Positions 7,936 to 59,370 of a stretch of DNA of 59,371 bases are shown in pieces. The translations under genes were made by a program, and so were the position numbers. The DNA lies in assembly GCA_905236285.1 (NCBI GenBank), contig CAJOPN010000003.1, positions 1-59,371 of the forward strand, given 5' to 3'. This stretch comes from an uncultured Selenomonadaceae bacterium. GTDB taxonomy: Bacteria; Bacillota; Negativicutes; Selenomonadales; Selenomonadaceae. The notes below the pieces were generated by a model. It had not been told where the DNA came from, made no database searches, and saw only the letters and a program-made list of their open reading frames with translations. Position 1 is the first letter of the stretch. Each line of letters opens with the position of its first letter.

Positions 7936-8478
7936 CTAGAAAATACCCCCCCCCTGATTATTTTCATTATTATAAAATCGTTTTGCAAGAAAATAAAATA
8001 TTTCCATATCATTAGCTGCAAAATTTTCTCTCAAAAGGTAAGTCAATCTCATAATCGCCAAATCTCTTGCAGTAGCTATGTAAGAAAGTCCATCCTTCGT
8101 TGTGCAGGTTATGAATTTGTTGTTACGACGTTCTATATAAAAATCAAGCTGACGATGAATCATTGTATAATTTAATTCTCGCGGCTTAAATAATGTATAA
8201 AATGCTTGAAGATTTGACATCCAGCTTGAATCATCGAGTGCATAAATTATTTTCTCAGATTGAATTTGCAAATCACTCAAAACGAGTTTGAAAGCATCAC
8301 GCATTTTTTGTTCAAAAATTAAAACATAATCCCAAGAGGAATTTACAATTATGGCTCGTTGTTGATTACTGTTTTCAGGTCTTATAACATTAACAACTTC
8401 AATTTTATCGACGTTGAGGAATTTATCAATCCAATTTTTACTGTTGCCGACGTAATCCAGTATCAAAATTTTTGTCAT
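7936..8478 (-). CDS. N-terminal part of the poly-G-interrupted FkbM methyltransferase gene
   Basis: This frame starts at an ATG with a good AGGAAGGAT ribosome binding site and encodes about 180 residues before running out of frame at the G tract, ending QGGGIF-stop. The N-terminal part (MTKILILDYVGNS, then SWDYVLIFEQKM and YALDDSSWM) matches no domain I can name. The last 40 residues look like the helical lead-in that precedes motif I in long FkbM proteins. With one extra G the frame continues straight into motif I of the downstream segment. It follows cheR by 21 bases on the same strand. In the assembled state it would give a truncated, catalytically dead product; its presence with intact start signals argues for a switchable gene rather than old decay. 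Confidence 0.8.
   Translation of the reverse strand: MTKILILDYVGNSKNWIDKFLNVDKIEVVNVIRPENSNQQRAIIVNSSWDYVLIFEQKMRDAFKLVLSDLQIQSEKIIYALDDSSWMSNLQAFYTLFKPRELNYTMIHRQLDFYIERRNNKFITCTTKDGLSYIATARDLAIMRLTYLLRENFAANDMEIFYFLAKRFYNNENNQGGGIF
7946..7954 (-). repeat. Poly-G tract (9 G on the minus strand) inside the FkbM gene
   Basis: Nine consecutive C on the plus strand, read as G9 in the gene, in a roughly 30% GC sequence. It sits just before the methyltransferase motif I and is exactly where the reading frame breaks. Ten or seven G would restore a 391-codon frame. Such homopolymers are the classic substrate of slipped-strand mispairing. Confidence 0.9.
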
Positions 8479-53120: not shown

Positions 53121-54938
53121 ATGGAAGAGAAAGAATTTTTGCAAAAAGCGGCGATTGCATCGATAAGTTATTTTGTATCGATGATTGCATTTTATTTGGA
53201 CATAGGTCAAAATATGGGAAATTATTGGCTTAATGCAATAATTCCGATGATATTTTGTTTGATTTTAATTCAATATTCGACGAAAAAATATATCTTCACG
53301 AAATTTATGATTCCAAATTTATTGAGCGGACTTTTGTGGAGTAGTGCATTTCCGATTTTATACGTTTGGACTTATGAAAAAGCATGGTTTATGTCGCTGA
53401 CTTATTACGATTTTGTAATAGGAACGTCGATTTTTTTATTTTTGACAAGTTTGGAAGTAATTTTGAATTGGAAAATATCGAAAAAGAAAAGTTCAGCGAT
53501 AATGGCGGCATTAAATTTTATATTTATTTTGATTCCATTCATAGAATACGCATATTATTTTATGACTTGGCATTGTCTTTCACCGGCATCACTTATGGCG
53601 TTATACTTGACGAATTGGAAAGAAAGCATAGATTTTTTGCGCGGAAATGTCGGCGATATAAATTTAATAATAATTTTTGTCGTGACGGGATTTTTATTAA
53701 AAAAATCGTATGAAATTCACAAAAAATTTGCCGAAGAAATAAAAAAATTGCCTAAAAAAAATTATGAAAAAATATCTGCAATAATCGTTGTAGTTTGTTC
53801 GAGCCTGGCATTAATTTATTATCCGCCGCAAAGCTCAATAGCAACGTTGTGGAAAAATGTTACGGACTATGTTGAAAAAATGCAAGAATATAATGTCGGA
53901 CATGCAGAAAGATATGAAAATTTACAAATAGACGAAAAAAATACATTGGCGGCAAAAACGACGGGAACAGTAATAATTGTAATCGGAGAGAGTGCATCTC
54001 GAAGTTATATGAAGGCATTTAACGAAAAATTTGAATTTGAAGACACACCGATATTGAGCGCGAAAAAAATTGAAGGATTTGAAAAAAACGGCTTTATAAT
54101 TTACGAAAATATTTATTCATCGTGGTCTCAAACAGTTCCTTCATTACAAAGAGCATTGACGGAACAAAGTCAATATAACGAAAAAGAATTTGAAAAATCT
54201 GTGTCGATAATAGATGTTGCCAAAAAATCGGGATACAAAACGTATTGGTTCAGCAATCAAGGACGATATGGAGAATATGACAGCGCAATAACATTGGTAG
54301 CAAAGACTGCAGAAATTTCAGAGTGGACGGACGATGCTTACGATTTTTCAGACAAATATGATTCTGCGCTTCTTAAATATTTGGAAAAAGTTGACGGAAG
54401 AGAAAATAATTTTATAGTTCTTCATTTAATGGGAAGTCACATTTATTATAATAATCGCTATCCGAAAGAATTTAAAAAATGGACGACGAAAGACGGAACG
54501 GGAATGGCGACGGCTGCTCCTTCATATGCAAATTCAATTTTATATACTGATTATATTTTGAATGAAATTTATGAATATGCGAAAAAAAATTTAAATTTGG
54601 AGGCGATGATATATTTTTCGGATCACGGCGAAAATTTAAATATTTCACATAATCCTGATGTATTCAGTTTTGATATGGTTAGAATTCCGATGTTTGTATA
54701 TTTATCTGAAGAATATCGCGAAAAATTGCCTGAGAGAACGGAAAATTTGCGAAGGAATGAGAAAAAATATTTTACAAACGACATGCTGTATGATACAATT
54801 TGCGGAATAATAAATGCGCCGTCAAATAAGTATGAGGTACGACAAGATTTTTCGTCTGAGGGATATAATTTTAATCGTGAAAATTTAACGACGATGCTCG
54901 GACAACATTCATTGAAGGAAGATGTCGAGCAAAATTAA
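53121..54938 (+). CDS. Phosphoethanolamine transferase-like membrane sulfatase-fold enzyme (EptA/CptA family)
   Basis: These inner-membrane enzymes transfer phosphoethanolamine to lipid A, core or other glycans on the periplasmic side. The first 250 residues hold about six membrane segments. The catalytic domain starts near 280 with VIIVIGESASRSYM (metal-ligand Glu), then the presumed nucleophile Thr in WSQTVPSLQRALTE, a zinc-type YFSDHGENLN and a histidine in HLMGSHIYY. Length is 605. Overall arrangement fits the family, although the CGTxT segment of EptA is replaced by SQTVPS. The ATG has no ribosome binding site. It is followed after 18 bases by the radical SAM gene and then legionaminic acid genes, pointing to surface or flagellin modification. 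Confidence 0.85.
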   Translation: MEEKEFLQKAAIASISYFVSMIAFYLDIGQNMGNYWLNAIIPMIFCLILIQYSTKKYIFTKFMIPNLLSGLLWSSAFPILYVWTYEKAWFMSLTYYDFVIGTSIFLFLTSLEVILNWKISKKKSSAIMAALNFIFILIPFIEYAYYFMTWHCLSPASLMALYLTNWKESIDFLRGNVGDINLIIIFVVTGFLLKKSYEIHKKFAEEIKKLPKKNYEKISAIIVVVCSSLALIYYPPQSSIATLWKNVTDYVEKMQEYNVGHAERYENLQIDEKNTLAAKTTGTVIIVIGESASRSYMKAFNEKFEFEDTPILSAKKIEGFEKNGFIIYENIYSSWSQTVPSLQRALTEQSQYNEKEFEKSVSIIDVAKKSGYKTYWFSNQGRYGEYDSAITLVAKTAEISEWTDDAYDFSDKYDSALLKYLEKVDGRENNFIVLHLMGSHIYYNNRYPKEFKKWTTKDGTGMATAAPSYANSILYTDYILNEIYEYAKKNLNLEAMIYFSDHGENLNISHNPDVFSFDMVRIPMFVYLSEEYREKLPERTENLRRNEKKYFTNDMLYDTICGIINAPSNKYEVRQDFSSEGYNFNRENLTTMLGQHSLKEDVEQN

Positions 54939-54956: not shown

Positions 54957-55583
54957 ATGAAATATTCATTGTGCGATGATTTTTTAAATTCCAAAAAAAT
55001 AATTTATCCGTTGGCAAAATATTTATCGCCGTATTTGAAAGGAAAAACAAATTTTACACCTTGGGCAGTAGAAATACATCCTACAGCAAAATGCAATCAT
55101 CAATGTATTCATTGTTCATATAAAGAAAGAAATTCAAATCGTGTCGAAATGCCGACGGAAGTTTTTCAAAAATTAATAAATTCTTTAATAGAAATGAAAA
55201 TCAGAGGCGTTTATTTTTCGGGAGGCGGCGAACCTTGCACTTATCCGGAACTTCCTTCAGCGATAAAAAAATTGAATGAAAACGGGATCGAAGTTGCATT
55301 GGTTACGAACGGGACATTGTTTGAAAAAAATGGTTTAAATGAGATTGCAAATCATATAAATTATATTGCTGTATCAGTTCCCAGTTGTACAAAAAATATT
55401 TATGAAAAAATAACAGGTCGCGACTTAATGGAAAAAATAATTTCTTTGCCCAAAAATATAAAAAGCAAATGGAAAAATGAATCGCCGATAATCGGAGCAA
55501 GAGTTGTAATAACAAATTTAATTGCGGAAGAAGTTCCACATATTTTGAATACTCTCAGCAAAGAAGTAGGGGGGGGGGTATGA
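54957..55583 (+). CDS. Radical SAM/SPASM-type protein, 5' part of a poly-G-interrupted gene
   Basis: This part contains the radical SAM core: AKCNHQCIHCSYKER (the CxxxCxxC motif), YFSGGGEPCTYPEL, VALVTNGTLF and a barrel end. It starts at ATG with GGGAGG upstream. The frame fails at a run of ten G, ending EVGGGV-stop. Removing one G (or adding two) joins it in frame to the segment at 55591-56043 as EVGGGYDYVLFK, a 361-residue protein. Radical SAM/SPASM enzymes of this type modify peptides or sugars; the neighbouring legionaminic-acid genes suggest a role in glycan or flagellin modification, which is inference. As assembled the product lacks its C-terminal half. Confidence 0.85.
   Translation: MKYSLCDDFLNSKKIIYPLAKYLSPYLKGKTNFTPWAVEIHPTAKCNHQCIHCSYKERNSNRVEMPTEVFQKLINSLIEMKIRGVYFSGGGEPCTYPELPSAIKKLNENGIEVALVTNGTLFEKNGLNEIANHINYIAVSVPSCTKNIYEKITGRDLMEKIISLPKNIKSKWKNESPIIGARVVITNLIAEEVPHILNTLSKEVGGGV
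55569..55578 (+). repeat. Poly-G tract (10 G) inside the radical SAM gene
   Basis: The upstream frame, which ends VGGGV-stop, requires ten consecutive G here. The downstream frame opens if one is lost (9 G) or two are gained (12 G). The tract encodes the GGG that precedes YDYVLFK and is the second such G run in the window; both sit at the point where the host gene breaks. Confidence 0.88.
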
Positions 55584-55590
55584 TTATGTT

Positions 55591-56043
55591 TTGTTCAAAA
55601 TCGTTCGTGATTATGAAGATCGCGGACTCGGTTTATCTGAAGAAATGGTCATAAAATTAAAAAATGAAATAAAAATTTTAAGCGACGAAGGAAAAATAAA
55701 TCATCGTTTTACAAATCTTGATAAAATTTTTTCTTATCGCAAGCCTTATAATCCTGAAGGCAAATGTCATATAAATCGAATGGGATTATTGGCAGTCGTT
55801 ACGCCTGAAGGTGATGTTTATCCCAACATTGCAGAAATTGGAAATGACGAATTTTGTGCAGGAAATTTAAGTAATTTGCCTTTTGAAAAAATTTGGAACG
55901 GCGAAAGACATTTGCAAGTCAAAAATAAATCCGATGAACAATGGCAAGAAGGAAAATGTAAAAATTGTCGTGCTGTTTCATATAATCTCAGAATAAATGA
56001 TATTTTATTGGAAATTCCGATTGAGGAAGATCCTTTCTTGTAA
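55591..56043 (+). CDS. Radical SAM/SPASM-type protein, 3' part (C-terminal cysteine-rich domain)
   Basis: This is the continuation of the radical SAM gene: FKIVRDYEDRGLGLSEE, then a helical segment and a C-terminal part with the cysteines of a SPASM-like auxiliary cluster (KCHINRMGLLAVVTPEGDVYPN, DEFCAGNLSNLPFEKIWNG and GKCKNCRAVSYN). A TTG lies at 55591 but has no ribosome binding site, so this part is probably expressed only when the G tract restores the frame. It is 150 residues long, ends 56 bases before legB and shows no other defect, which favours a switchable gene over an old pseudogene. Confidence 0.85.
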   Translation: MFKIVRDYEDRGLGLSEEMVIKLKNEIKILSDEGKINHRFTNLDKIFSYRKPYNPEGKCHINRMGLLAVVTPEGDVYPNIAEIGNDEFCAGNLSNLPFEKIWNGERHLQVKNKSDEQWQEGKCKNCRAVSYNLRINDILLEIPIEEDPFL

Positions 56044-56099
56044 ATTTTTTATGTCATCACTTTCTGCAAATTTTTTTCTTTCGGAAAGTGGTGATTATT

Positions 56100-57104
56100 T
56101 TGCATTACAAAAAAATATTGGTTACAGGCGCAGACGGATTTATCGGTTCGCATTTAACCGAGACTTTAATTCGTGAAGGCAATAATGTAAAGGCATTCGT
56201 TCAATATAATTCTTTCAACTCATGGGGCTGGCTCGATTGTACGGATACCGAAATAAAAAAATCTCTGGAGGTATTTTCGGGAGACATTCGCGATTCGCAC
56301 GGAGTCAAAACAGCGATGAAAGACTGCGATTGCGTAATAAATTTGGCGGCATTGATTGCAATTCCTTATTCTTATCATTCGCCGGATACTTATATTGATA
56401 CAAATGTCAAAGGTGCATTGAATGTTGTGCAGGCGGCACGAGATCTAGATATTTCAAAAATTGTCCAGACCTCAACTTCTGAAGTTTATGGAACGGCGCA
56501 ATTCGTACCGATAACCGAAAAACATCCTCTGCATGCTCAATCACCGTATGCAGCAAGCAAAATCGGAGCCGATCAAATTGCAATGTCGTTTTATAATTCA
56601 TTTGGATTGCCGGTTGCAATAATAAGACCTTTCAACACGTACGGACCGAGACAATCGGCAAGAGCAGTAATTCCGACGATTATAACGCAAATCTTAAACG
56701 GAAACAAAAAAATAAAATTGGGAGCAATTTCACCTACTAGAGATTTTAATTACATCAAAGATACCGTTCAAGGCTTTATATCCGTTGCAAATTCGGAAAA
56801 ATCAATCGGCGAAGTTATAAATATCGGAAGTAATTTTGAAATTTCAATAGGCGAAACTGCGAAACTCATTGCCGAAATTTTAAATGTCGAAATTGAAATT
56901 GAAACTGATGAAATAAGATTGAGACCTGAAAAAAGTGAAGTCAACAGGCTTTGGGCAGACAATTCAAAAGCAAAAAATTTATTGAATTGGCAGCCGAAAT
57001 TTTCAGGAAAAGACGGAATGCGGAGAGGTTTAAAAGAAACGATCGAATGGTTTTCAAATAACGAAAATATTAAAAAGTACAAGGCAGATGTGTATAATTT
57101 ATGA
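56100..57104 (+). CDS. legB: NAD-dependent 4,6-dehydratase of legionaminic acid synthesis (LegB)
   Basis: LegB removes water from GDP- (or UDP-) GlcNAc to give the 4-keto-6-deoxy sugar in the first dedicated step of legionaminic acid synthesis. The SDR fold is clear: ILVTGADGFIGSHLTETL, VINLAALIAIPYSYHSP, TSTSEVYG, the YxxxK motif in SPYAASKIGADQ, IIRPFNTYGPRQSARAVIPTI (cited in part: NTYGPRQSARA) and INIGSNFEISIGE, the phrase typical of LegB. GTG at 56088 lies inside the ribosome binding site; TTG at 56100 gives MHYKKILVTG and is preferred. The gene overlaps legC (ATGA). A small hairpin upstream could hide the ribosome binding site. Confidence 0.92.
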   Translation: MHYKKILVTGADGFIGSHLTETLIREGNNVKAFVQYNSFNSWGWLDCTDTEIKKSLEVFSGDIRDSHGVKTAMKDCDCVINLAALIAIPYSYHSPDTYIDTNVKGALNVVQAARDLDISKIVQTSTSEVYGTAQFVPITEKHPLHAQSPYAASKIGADQIAMSFYNSFGLPVAIIRPFNTYGPRQSARAVIPTIITQILNGNKKIKLGAISPTRDFNYIKDTVQGFISVANSEKSIGEVINIGSNFEISIGETAKLIAEILNVEIEIETDEIRLRPEKSEVNRLWADNSKAKNLLNWQPKFSGKDGMRRGLKETIEWFSNNENIKKYKADVYNL

Positions 57105-58288
57105 CTAATGAAGAAAAATTTTTTATTGAAAATATCAGAAAAAAATTAAAACAGGCTTTGAATGCAGAAAATTTTATTCCATTGCATGAACCGAATTTCA
57201 GCGGCAATGAAAATAAATATGTCAGCGAATGTGTAAATACCGGATGGGTATCTTCAGTCGGAAAATTTGTTGATTCATTTGAAAAAAATTTGGCTGAATA
57301 TACCGGAGTAAAAAGAGCAGTAGCAGTCGTCAACGGAACTTCGGCACTTCATATAAGTTTAATTTCAGTCGGAGTTAAGGCGAATGATGAAATATTAATT
57401 CCGGCTCTTACATTCATAGCAACAGCAAATGCAGTAACTTATTGTAATGCGATTCCTCATTTCGTTGATAGTGCAGATGATACATTGGGAATTGATCCGA
57501 TTAAATTGGAATCTTATTTAAGAGAAATATCCGAAATACGAAACGGATTTTGTTACAATAAGTTAACCGATCGCCGAATTTCTGCAGTCGTTCCAATGCA
57601 CACTTTCGGTCATCCCGTTGATATGGAAAAATTAATTGAAGTCGCTGAAAAATATAATCTGGTTATCGTCGAGGATTGTGCAGAATCAATCGGATCATTT
57701 TATAAAAATATCCACACGGGAAATTTCGGAAAAGTGGCGGCAATAAGTTTTAACGGAAACAAAACAATTACGACAGGAGGAGGCGGTGCAGTTCTTACGA
57801 ATGATGAAGAATTGGGAAAATTTATAAAACATATCACGACTCAGGCAAAAATACCTCATCGTTGGGAATTTTCTCACGATTATATCGGTTACAATTATCG
57901 AATGCCGAATATTAATGCCGCTTTGGGTTGTGCACAGCTGGAACAATTAAATAGTTTCATTGAGAAGAAAAGAAAACTTGCGGTGAAATATAAAAATTTA
58001 TTCCAAACGATTGAAGGAATTAAATTTTTTGAAGAACCGAAATTTGCCAAAAGTAATTATTGGCTCAATGCAATTATTTTAGAAAAGAAATATCAACATT
58101 TGAGAGATGAATTACTTTCAGAATTGAACGACAACAATATAATGTCACGTCCGATTTGGAATTTGATGTATAAAATGAAAATGTATGAAAATTGTCCGCG
58201 AATGAATTGTGAGACGGCTGAAGAAATAAATCGGAGACTAATAAACATTCCGAGTAGTGCAAAATTGGCAGAGGATTTTAAAAAATGA
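57101..58288 (+). CDS. legC: LegC-family aminotransferase
   Basis: LegC is a PLP enzyme that aminates the 4-keto sugar made by LegB. The family start FIPLHEPNFSGNENKYV, CVNTGWVSSVGKFVDSFE, VAVVNGTSALHISL, PALTFIATANAVTY, VVPMHTFGHPVDMEKL, IVEDCAESIG and the PLP lysine in SFNGNKTITTGGGGA identify it. The order legB-legC with overlapping starts is that of known legionaminic acid clusters. It is 395 residues, normal for LegC, and its stop overlaps the next start. The two missing residues between dehydration and condensation (acetyltransferase LegH, epimerase LegG, synthase LegI, activator LegF) would lie beyond the window. Confidence 0.92.
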   Translation: MTNEEKFFIENIRKKLKQALNAENFIPLHEPNFSGNENKYVSECVNTGWVSSVGKFVDSFEKNLAEYTGVKRAVAVVNGTSALHISLISVGVKANDEILIPALTFIATANAVTYCNAIPHFVDSADDTLGIDPIKLESYLREISEIRNGFCYNKLTDRRISAVVPMHTFGHPVDMEKLIEVAEKYNLVIVEDCAESIGSFYKNIHTGNFGKVAAISFNGNKTITTGGGGAVLTNDEELGKFIKHITTQAKIPHRWEFSHDYIGYNYRMPNINAALGCAQLEQLNSFIEKKRKLAVKYKNLFQTIEGIKFFEEPKFAKSNYWLNAIILEKKYQHLRDELLSELNDNNIMSRPIWNLMYKMKMYENCPRMNCETAEEINRRLINIPSSAKLAEDFKK

Positions 58289-59370
58289 AAATTGAGGAAT
58301 TAAATAAATATCTTGGAAATATTCAAATGACGATAGTCGAGGCAATGCAGAGAATCGATAAAAACAATGCAGGAATTTTATACATTGCCGATGAGCAAAG
58401 AAAATTAATCGGAAGTTTAACGGACGGAGATATAAGAAGATGGATAATCAAAACAGGCGAATTGACTGGAAAAATTGAACAAGCAATGTTTTGCAATCCA
58501 AAATTTTTATTTGAAGAAAATTATAATTACGAAACCGAAAAAAATTTTTTTTCATCAAATACTCTGCAGTCTGTTCCGATAGTCGACAAAAATAAAAAAA
58601 TCATCAATATTATATTCAGAAATAAAAATGCAATAAACGTTCTCAACAAAAATAATATCTCACTTTCAAAGATTCCGATTATAATAATGGCAGGCGGAAA
58701 AGGCACCAGATTATATCCTTATACAAAAATTATTCCTAAACCTTTGATTCCGATCGGTGATGTTCCGATTATCGAAAGAATTTTAAATCGTTTCAGAAAA
58801 TATGGAGCAGAAAAATTTTTTATAACCCTCAATCATAAAAAAGAAATGATAAAATCATATCTCAATGAACTTAATGTCAATTATGAAATTAATTACGTTG
58901 AAGAAAATGAGCCGCTCGGAACGGCAGGAAGCATAAGACTGATTGATGAAAAATTTGATACTCCGATCATTGTGACAAATTGTGATATATTGATTGAAAC
59001 AAATTACGAAGATATTTTTTTGCATCATAAAAAATTTAAAAATGCTTTGACGATTGTATCCTCATTAAAAAATACAACGATTCCTTACGGCGTGATTCAT
59101 TCTCGTGAAGAAGGAATAGTATCATCGATGGAAGAAAAACCGATAATTTCATATCTGATAAATACGGGAATGTACATAATAAATGCGGAGCATATTGAAA
59201 AAATTCCGAAAGATGAAGTTTTCAATATGACAGATTTGATTGACAGACTGATTAAAGAAAATTATAAAGTCGGAATATATCCAATTAGTGAAGATTCATT
59301 TTTGGATATGGGAGAATTTGAAGAAATGAAACGAATGGAAGAAAAAATTTACAGCAATGTGATTCGCTGA
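58285..59370 (+). CDS. ptmE: CBS-domain nucleotidyltransferase, PtmE-like glucosamine-1-phosphate guanylyltransferase
   Basis: The first 120 residues form a CBS pair (GSLTDGDIRRWI; VPIVDKNKKII). The nucleotidyltransferase follows from residue about 130 with IIIMAGGKGTRLYPYTKIIPKPLIPIGDVPI (cited in part: MAGGKGTRLYPYT), GTAGSIRLI and NCDILIETNY. In Campylobacter, PtmE of this architecture makes GDP-GlcN for the GDP-based legionaminic acid route. The gene directly follows legB-legC and ends at the last codon of the window. The GTP preference is inferred from context. An UTP- or CTP-using relative with CBS domains is the alternative. Confidence 0.88.
   Translation: MKIEELNKYLGNIQMTIVEAMQRIDKNNAGILYIADEQRKLIGSLTDGDIRRWIIKTGELTGKIEQAMFCNPKFLFEENYNYETEKNFFSSNTLQSVPIVDKNKKIINIIFRNKNAINVLNKNNISLSKIPIIIMAGGKGTRLYPYTKIIPKPLIPIGDVPIIERILNRFRKYGAEKFFITLNHKKEMIKSYLNELNVNYEINYVEENEPLGTAGSIRLIDEKFDTPIIVTNCDILIETNYEDIFLHHKKFKNALTIVSSLKNTTIPYGVIHSREEGIVSSMEEKPIISYLINTGMYIINAEHIEKIPKDEVFNMTDLIDRLIKENYKVGIYPISEDSFLDMGEFEEMKRMEEKIYSNVIR

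Follow-up and report, generated by a model that had tools for sequence, protein, structure and literature searches.

A Radical SAM/SPASM Gene Interrupted by Ten Guanines

In the genome of an uncultured Selenomonadaceae bacterium, a run of ten guanines interrupts a radical SAM gene that lies just before genes for legionaminic acid, raising the question of whether the run is a reversible switch, a defect, or the boundary between two genes. The window analyzed (the whole stretch of DNA, 59,371 nucleotides of contig CAJOPN010000003.1) carries this radical SAM/SPASM gene on the forward strand at 54957–56043, where the tract at 55569–55578, also on the forward strand, breaks it into two frames exactly as the first-pass annotation had stated. 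The upstream frame (54957–55583, 208 aa, ending in SKEVGGGV-stop) contains the radical SAM core, with the CxxxCxxC motif present as CNHQCIHC at residue 46 and a PF04055 match of 64.8 bits (cut-off 29.5). The downstream frame (55579–56043, 154 aa, starting with YDYVLFKIV) contains the SPASM half, matched by PF13186 (32.1 bits, cut-off 21.5) and TIGR04085 (31.9, cut-off 27). Reading through both halves yields 361 residues, in agreement with the annotation's further claim that nine G would restore a full enzyme with both motifs. A single-base change in tract length therefore shifts the gene between truncated and full-length frames. The assembled genome, a MAG in which the consensus tract length may be wrong by one G, presents the OFF state (ten G). 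The resulting 208-aa stub covers positions 2–164 of the 166 in the PF04055 profile, nearly the whole core.

The family membership of the enzyme is clearer than its identity. With the halves scored, no NCBIfam equivalog model for a named radical SAM enzyme reached its cut-off, all falling far below; the best was TIGR04317, with 94 bits for the core half against a cut-off of 380. Profile comparison matched solved radical SAM enzymes (5wgg, viperins, BtrN, MoaA, and DesII) to the core, the SPASM part, or both (best E 6.8e-10), but at a distance too large for substrate transfer.

The tract lies inside an open reading frame and exceeds the length of at least 7–8 G or C that marks poly-G contingency loci. 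Shuffling of the 59-kb window gave an expectation of 0.07 matches to G8, vs. five overlapping matches from two tracts in the real sequence. No other run of at least six G or C occurs in the window besides the G10 at 55569–55578 and a C9 at 7946–7954; the latter corresponds to nine G on the reverse strand, within an FkbM methyltransferase gene that it places out of frame, and has the same flanking motif.

Gene Neighborhood and Legionaminic Acid Genes

Profile scores bore out the neighborhood described in the first-pass annotation. A phosphoethanolamine-transferase-like gene with a sulfatase fold (53121–54938, forward; PF00884, 132.8 bits) lies upstream, separated from the radical SAM gene by 18 bases, and is also matched by the CptA/EptA models, at scores under their cut-offs. 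Downstream, all on the forward strand, are legB (NAD-dependent 4,6-dehydratase, 56088–57104; TIGR04180, 535 bits, cut-off 475), legC (aminotransferase, 57101–58288; TIGR04181, 553 bits, cut-off 420), and a ptmE-like gene with CBS and sugar nucleotidyltransferase domains (58285–59370; PF00483 and PF00571) that reaches the contig end. With both LegB and LegC over their cut-offs, the region fits a legionaminic acid locus.

A strong hairpin (56053–56095, forward; −18.1 kcal/mol, z −5.8) stands between the radical SAM gene and legB and has TTATTTT directly on its 3′ side; a strict terminator scan did not include it among its terminators. It could be a terminator, an attenuator, or a cover of the legB start, and may separate transcription of the radical SAM gene from that of legB-legC. 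With termination or attenuation possible at this point, any polar effect of the OFF state on legB and legC is uncertain. The 3′ arm of the hairpin overlaps the legB start region.

LegB scored over the NCBIfam cut-off in just one of 66 genomes of the genus, namely the source genome, so the leg cluster was probably acquired. Such an origin fits an explanation in which the gene is a pseudogene that decayed through a one-off G insertion after arriving with the leg cluster, or else is intact and only appears broken through a consensus error, to which a MAG consensus lends itself. We regard this explanation as unlikely, since the two halves are intact in other respects and retain their domains and cysteines, the gene contains no other frame break, and the genome has 49 further tracts that match this one in length class and motif.

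An Uninterrupted Homologue in Selenomonas ruminantium

A search of 189 genomes of the family with the 361-residue read-through found one close homologue, 69% identical and encoded in a single open frame. None was added by 301 genomes sampled across the class, and homologues of the radical SAM gene were not found in the plasmids and viral contigs searched. The homologue belongs to another genus, in Selenomonas ruminantium Z108 (NZ_FOQK01000004.1), where it lies directly before legC, with no legB between, and is followed by NeuD-, NeuC-, NeuB-, and PtmE-type genes. The gene on its other side appears, in our reading of the sequence, to be an FkbM-like methyltransferase. When the two proteins are aligned, the tract appears as three extra glycines (SKEV-GGG-YDY vs. 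KKRN---FDY), and the Z108 protein, which is encoded without a tract at the corresponding site, is three residues shorter. A run of seven G is present at another site in the same Z108 gene (L031:2015–2021) and is possibly a tract of its own.

This comparison decides between one gene and two. A TTG at 55591, just past the G run, would in principle permit re-initiation, and the annotation had named homologues occurring as two independently translated proteins as evidence against its own reading. The sole close homologue is instead one uninterrupted frame, which rules out two separately translated proteins; being tract-free and beside legC, it identifies 54957–56043 as one gene that is now OFF. 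The annotation's suggestion that the tract might be conserved next to legB in other Negativicutes found no support, given the single LegB-bearing genome of the genus and the lack of a tract at the site in Z108.

Fifty Tracts Across the Source Genome

The source genome is a MAG of 2.07 Mb in 199 contigs, 81% complete and with 34% GC. It contains 50 G/C tracts of 8–12 bases with a mode of 10, distributed as 4 of length 8, 14 of length 9, 28 of length 10, 3 of length 11, and 1 of length 12. Matches to G8 numbered 133 vs. approximately two expected (scaled from the shuffled window), so that the tract class is over-represented genome-wide, as is characteristic of contingency loci. Shorter runs do not grade into this class: runs of six or seven G/C were absent from the 202 kb examined, which held 54 runs of four and four of five. 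The frame was open in 12 of 37 interior tracts (32%, vs. the one third expected from drift), although ON/OFF assignment is uncertain for short or poly-C tract cases.

Two further explanations were considered. Long homopolymers can cause transcription slippage (reviewed in PMC3711429). If this, or frameshifting of ribosomes, took place at the G run, one sequence could yield both protein forms simultaneously. Recoding of this kind is highly improbable here, as the one close homologue, that of Z108, lacks the frameshift site, and the genome's tract lengths fall in all three classes, as drift predicts. We give equally little credence to domain switching, in which the core-only protein and the enzyme with core plus SPASM would both be functional. 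The near-complete core of the stub would suit it, and homopolymer tracts are reported to switch C-terminal sequences in Helicobacter canadensis (PMC2823697); however, the close homologue is full length, and the other tracts of the source genome cut genes at arbitrary points.

The tracts are found mainly in genes for glycosyltransferases, methyltransferases, and nonulosonic acid or sugar enzymes. They include FkbM and other methyltransferases; glycosyltransferases of families 1, 2, 9, 10, and 11; NeuC, NeuD, epimerase, DegT aminotransferase, PIG-L, LuxC, ATP-grasp, and AMP-binding genes; and two proteins with weak, below-cut-off matches that are MptE-like. NeuB was found on three contigs of the source genome, with C139 carrying NeuB-NeuD-NeuC; the window's own contig stops after the ptmE-like gene. 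Poly-G tracts were also observed in a gene beside NeuB-type synthases on three contigs (L094 on C139, L104 on C190, and L107 on C198), the tract-bearing neighbors across these being NeuD, NeuC, a methyltransferase, and an ATP-grasp gene. As all three contigs have a tract in a neighbor of the synthase, nonulosonic acid pathways appear to be a repeated target of switching.

Three more radical SAM genes in the source genome bear tracts. One, on contig C66 (L082), has by the look of its sequence a cobalamin-binding N-terminal domain; another, on C84 (L084:7656–8813), reads ON; and the third, on C149 (L097:1453–2463), has a SPASM-like tail and is split by poly-C. Two tandem copies related to the C84 gene, with tracts too, occur in the related species G061 (L154). 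The C84 gene is absent between the same two neighboring matches in two related species (G087:C4 and G065:C23), so it looks like a movable cargo gene. Comparison with close species gave no empty sites, as the tract genes were the non-conserved genes of the region searched. One methyltransferase gene is common to the source genome and G087 and has a tract at the corresponding place in both, with differing flanks.

Further tracts were seen in related species. G068 has 90, with a mode length of 12 in the sample read (L233–L252), and several of these lie in tandem gene copies with common flanks (e.g., four in L243). Some tracts are placed between TTGACA- and TATAAT-like boxes, as in CTTGACACT-G12-TATAAT (L213 in G068) and CTTGACAAAAT-G16-TATAAT (L218 in G065), an arrangement that suggests transcriptional phase variation by promoter spacing.

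A Species-Specific Motif Flanks the Tracts

All 50 tracts of the source genome have flanks in common, summarized as AAnAAnTA-G10-TATT. The base before the tract is A in 49 of 50 and position −4 is A in 42 of 50, while the base after is T in every case and the next is A in 48. The radical SAM tract fits this motif, reading AGCAAAGAAGTA-G10-TATG together with the flanking bases (55557–55582, forward). Information in the flanks amounts to 7.3 bits for the 50 tracts, whereas equally sized samples of G3–5 runs averaged 1.1 bits and did not exceed 1.9, and the pattern A-G8-N0-4-TA had 51 matches in the source genome vs. none for its reversed control. The motif is present whether G lies on the coding strand (in each codon phase) or C does, and also around edge and intergenic tracts.

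Two simple origins of the motif were ruled out. It does not derive from gene copies in the source genome, where the flanks of all 50 tracts are non-homologous over 150 bp on each side, nor is it a property of any G run, as G3–5 runs are without it.

Compared across species, with one genome per species, the motif changes. In G068, where gene copies do occur and were collapsed to leave 30 non-homologous tracts, it reads TTCTC-G12-CA (7.4 bits); in G121 it is C-G8/9-TA (5.1 bits) and in G061 CAA-G9-TA (5.6 bits). Weaker A/TA forms are seen in G087 and G091, and G100 has a GCGT-G11-TT form that is marginal at n = 10. No flank motif was visible in G165 and G174 (n = 10 tracts each).

A species-specific motif on both sides of the tract is not what ordinary slippage, even with switching under selection, would predict, and it poses a harder problem than the on/off switch itself. 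It gives a hint that the tracts are formed or maintained by some sequence-specific process. The cause could be an activity that recognizes a sequence and there creates or lengthens G runs, the copying of short tract-plus-flank units between loci, or a species-specific DNA-binding or methylation context that favors tract survival. In the first case, G runs could be inserted or extended wherever the site is recognized, thereby placing on/off switches genome-wide, including that in the radical SAM gene. For NeuC (C190) and NeuD (C139), comparison by eye with their relatives suggests that the tract took the place of existing residues and added few or none, which differs from the radical SAM gene. 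Simple insertion may therefore not explain all cases. We offer as a tentative and somewhat doubtful proposal that the tracts are more than slippage-prone runs kept by selection, and that a sequence-specific process, with a target motif of its own in each species, creates or maintains them.

Proposed Mechanism and Precedents

We consider it highly probable that 54957–56043 is a poly-G phase-variable contingency gene, switched by slippage and acting in Leg or glycan chemistry such that surface or flagellar glycans vary. The phase-variable reading is well supported by the 50 like tracts, the tract-free full-length homologue beside legC, the peak of tract lengths at 9–10, and the roughly one third of genes that are ON. 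Slipped-strand mispairing would add or remove G's at 55569–55578. Tract lengths that are multiples of three, in practice nine, would give the full-length enzyme of approximately 361 residues, and the present ten the 208-residue stub without the auxiliary iron-sulfur (SPASM) domain, which is presumably inactive. In C. jejuni, published rates are biased toward loss for ten-G tracts (0.0018 per division) and toward gain for nine-G tracts (0.001) (PMC8224891; see also PMC8355987); at such rates, the gene would flip mainly between nine G (full) and ten (truncated). Actual switching of the tract length is predicted here from sequence. The substrate of the enzyme most likely lies in Leg-type or glycan chemistry, judging from gene linkage in two genera; it could be the nonulosonic acid, a nucleotide-sugar precursor, or a glycan made from it, and the result would be cells that differ in surface or flagellar glycan chemistry.

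The closest parallels come from Campylobacter. There, poly-G tracts are likewise intragenic, spanning 8–12 G with lengths that peak at 9–10 (PMC6321876), and lie in many genes for methyltransferases, glycan enzymes, and motility accessory (Maf) type proteins, as well as in radical SAM genes. Two poly-G genes of the core phasome of C. fetus, CFT03427_1545 and CFT03427_1558, are listed as "Radical SAM superfamily" (PhasomeIt, Table 1, PMC6321876), and in C. jejuni HS:19 the anaerobic sulfatase-maturating (radical SAM) gene CjjRM3420_1441 carries a G/C tract (PMC8743553). The C. jejuni gene shares with the present one its radical SAM product, its homopolymeric G/C tract, and its place in a surface-modification cluster, but that cluster is for sulfur modification rather than nonulosonic acid, and the proposed substrate is a sulfatase. 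The system described here differs from the Campylobacter phasome in its host, a member of the Selenomonadaceae, in the position of the radical SAM gene next to legB-legC, and in its species-specific flank motif, of which we saw no description for Campylobacter in the literature searched.

The first-pass annotation had proposed a phase-variable radical SAM enzyme in a glycan or flagellin modification locus as something undescribed. The phase-variable part of that proposal stands, and the C. fetus and C. jejuni cases make "undescribed" too strong. A phase-variable radical SAM gene thus has precedent, and the link to leg genes is, as far as we found, new. In the literature searched, which excluded most subscription journals, we came across no account of a phase-variable radical SAM gene beside legionaminic acid genes, no paper joining radical SAM with legionaminic acid, and nothing on poly-G phase variation in Selenomonadaceae.

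The tract set documents a poly-G phasome of Campylobacter scale in the Selenomonadaceae. Single cells could differ in surface sugar chemistry if a radical SAM enzyme next to leg genes is switched on and off at random. If the species-specific flank motif holds, the origin of contingency tracts, and the question of a dedicated activity that makes or keeps them, would become testable.
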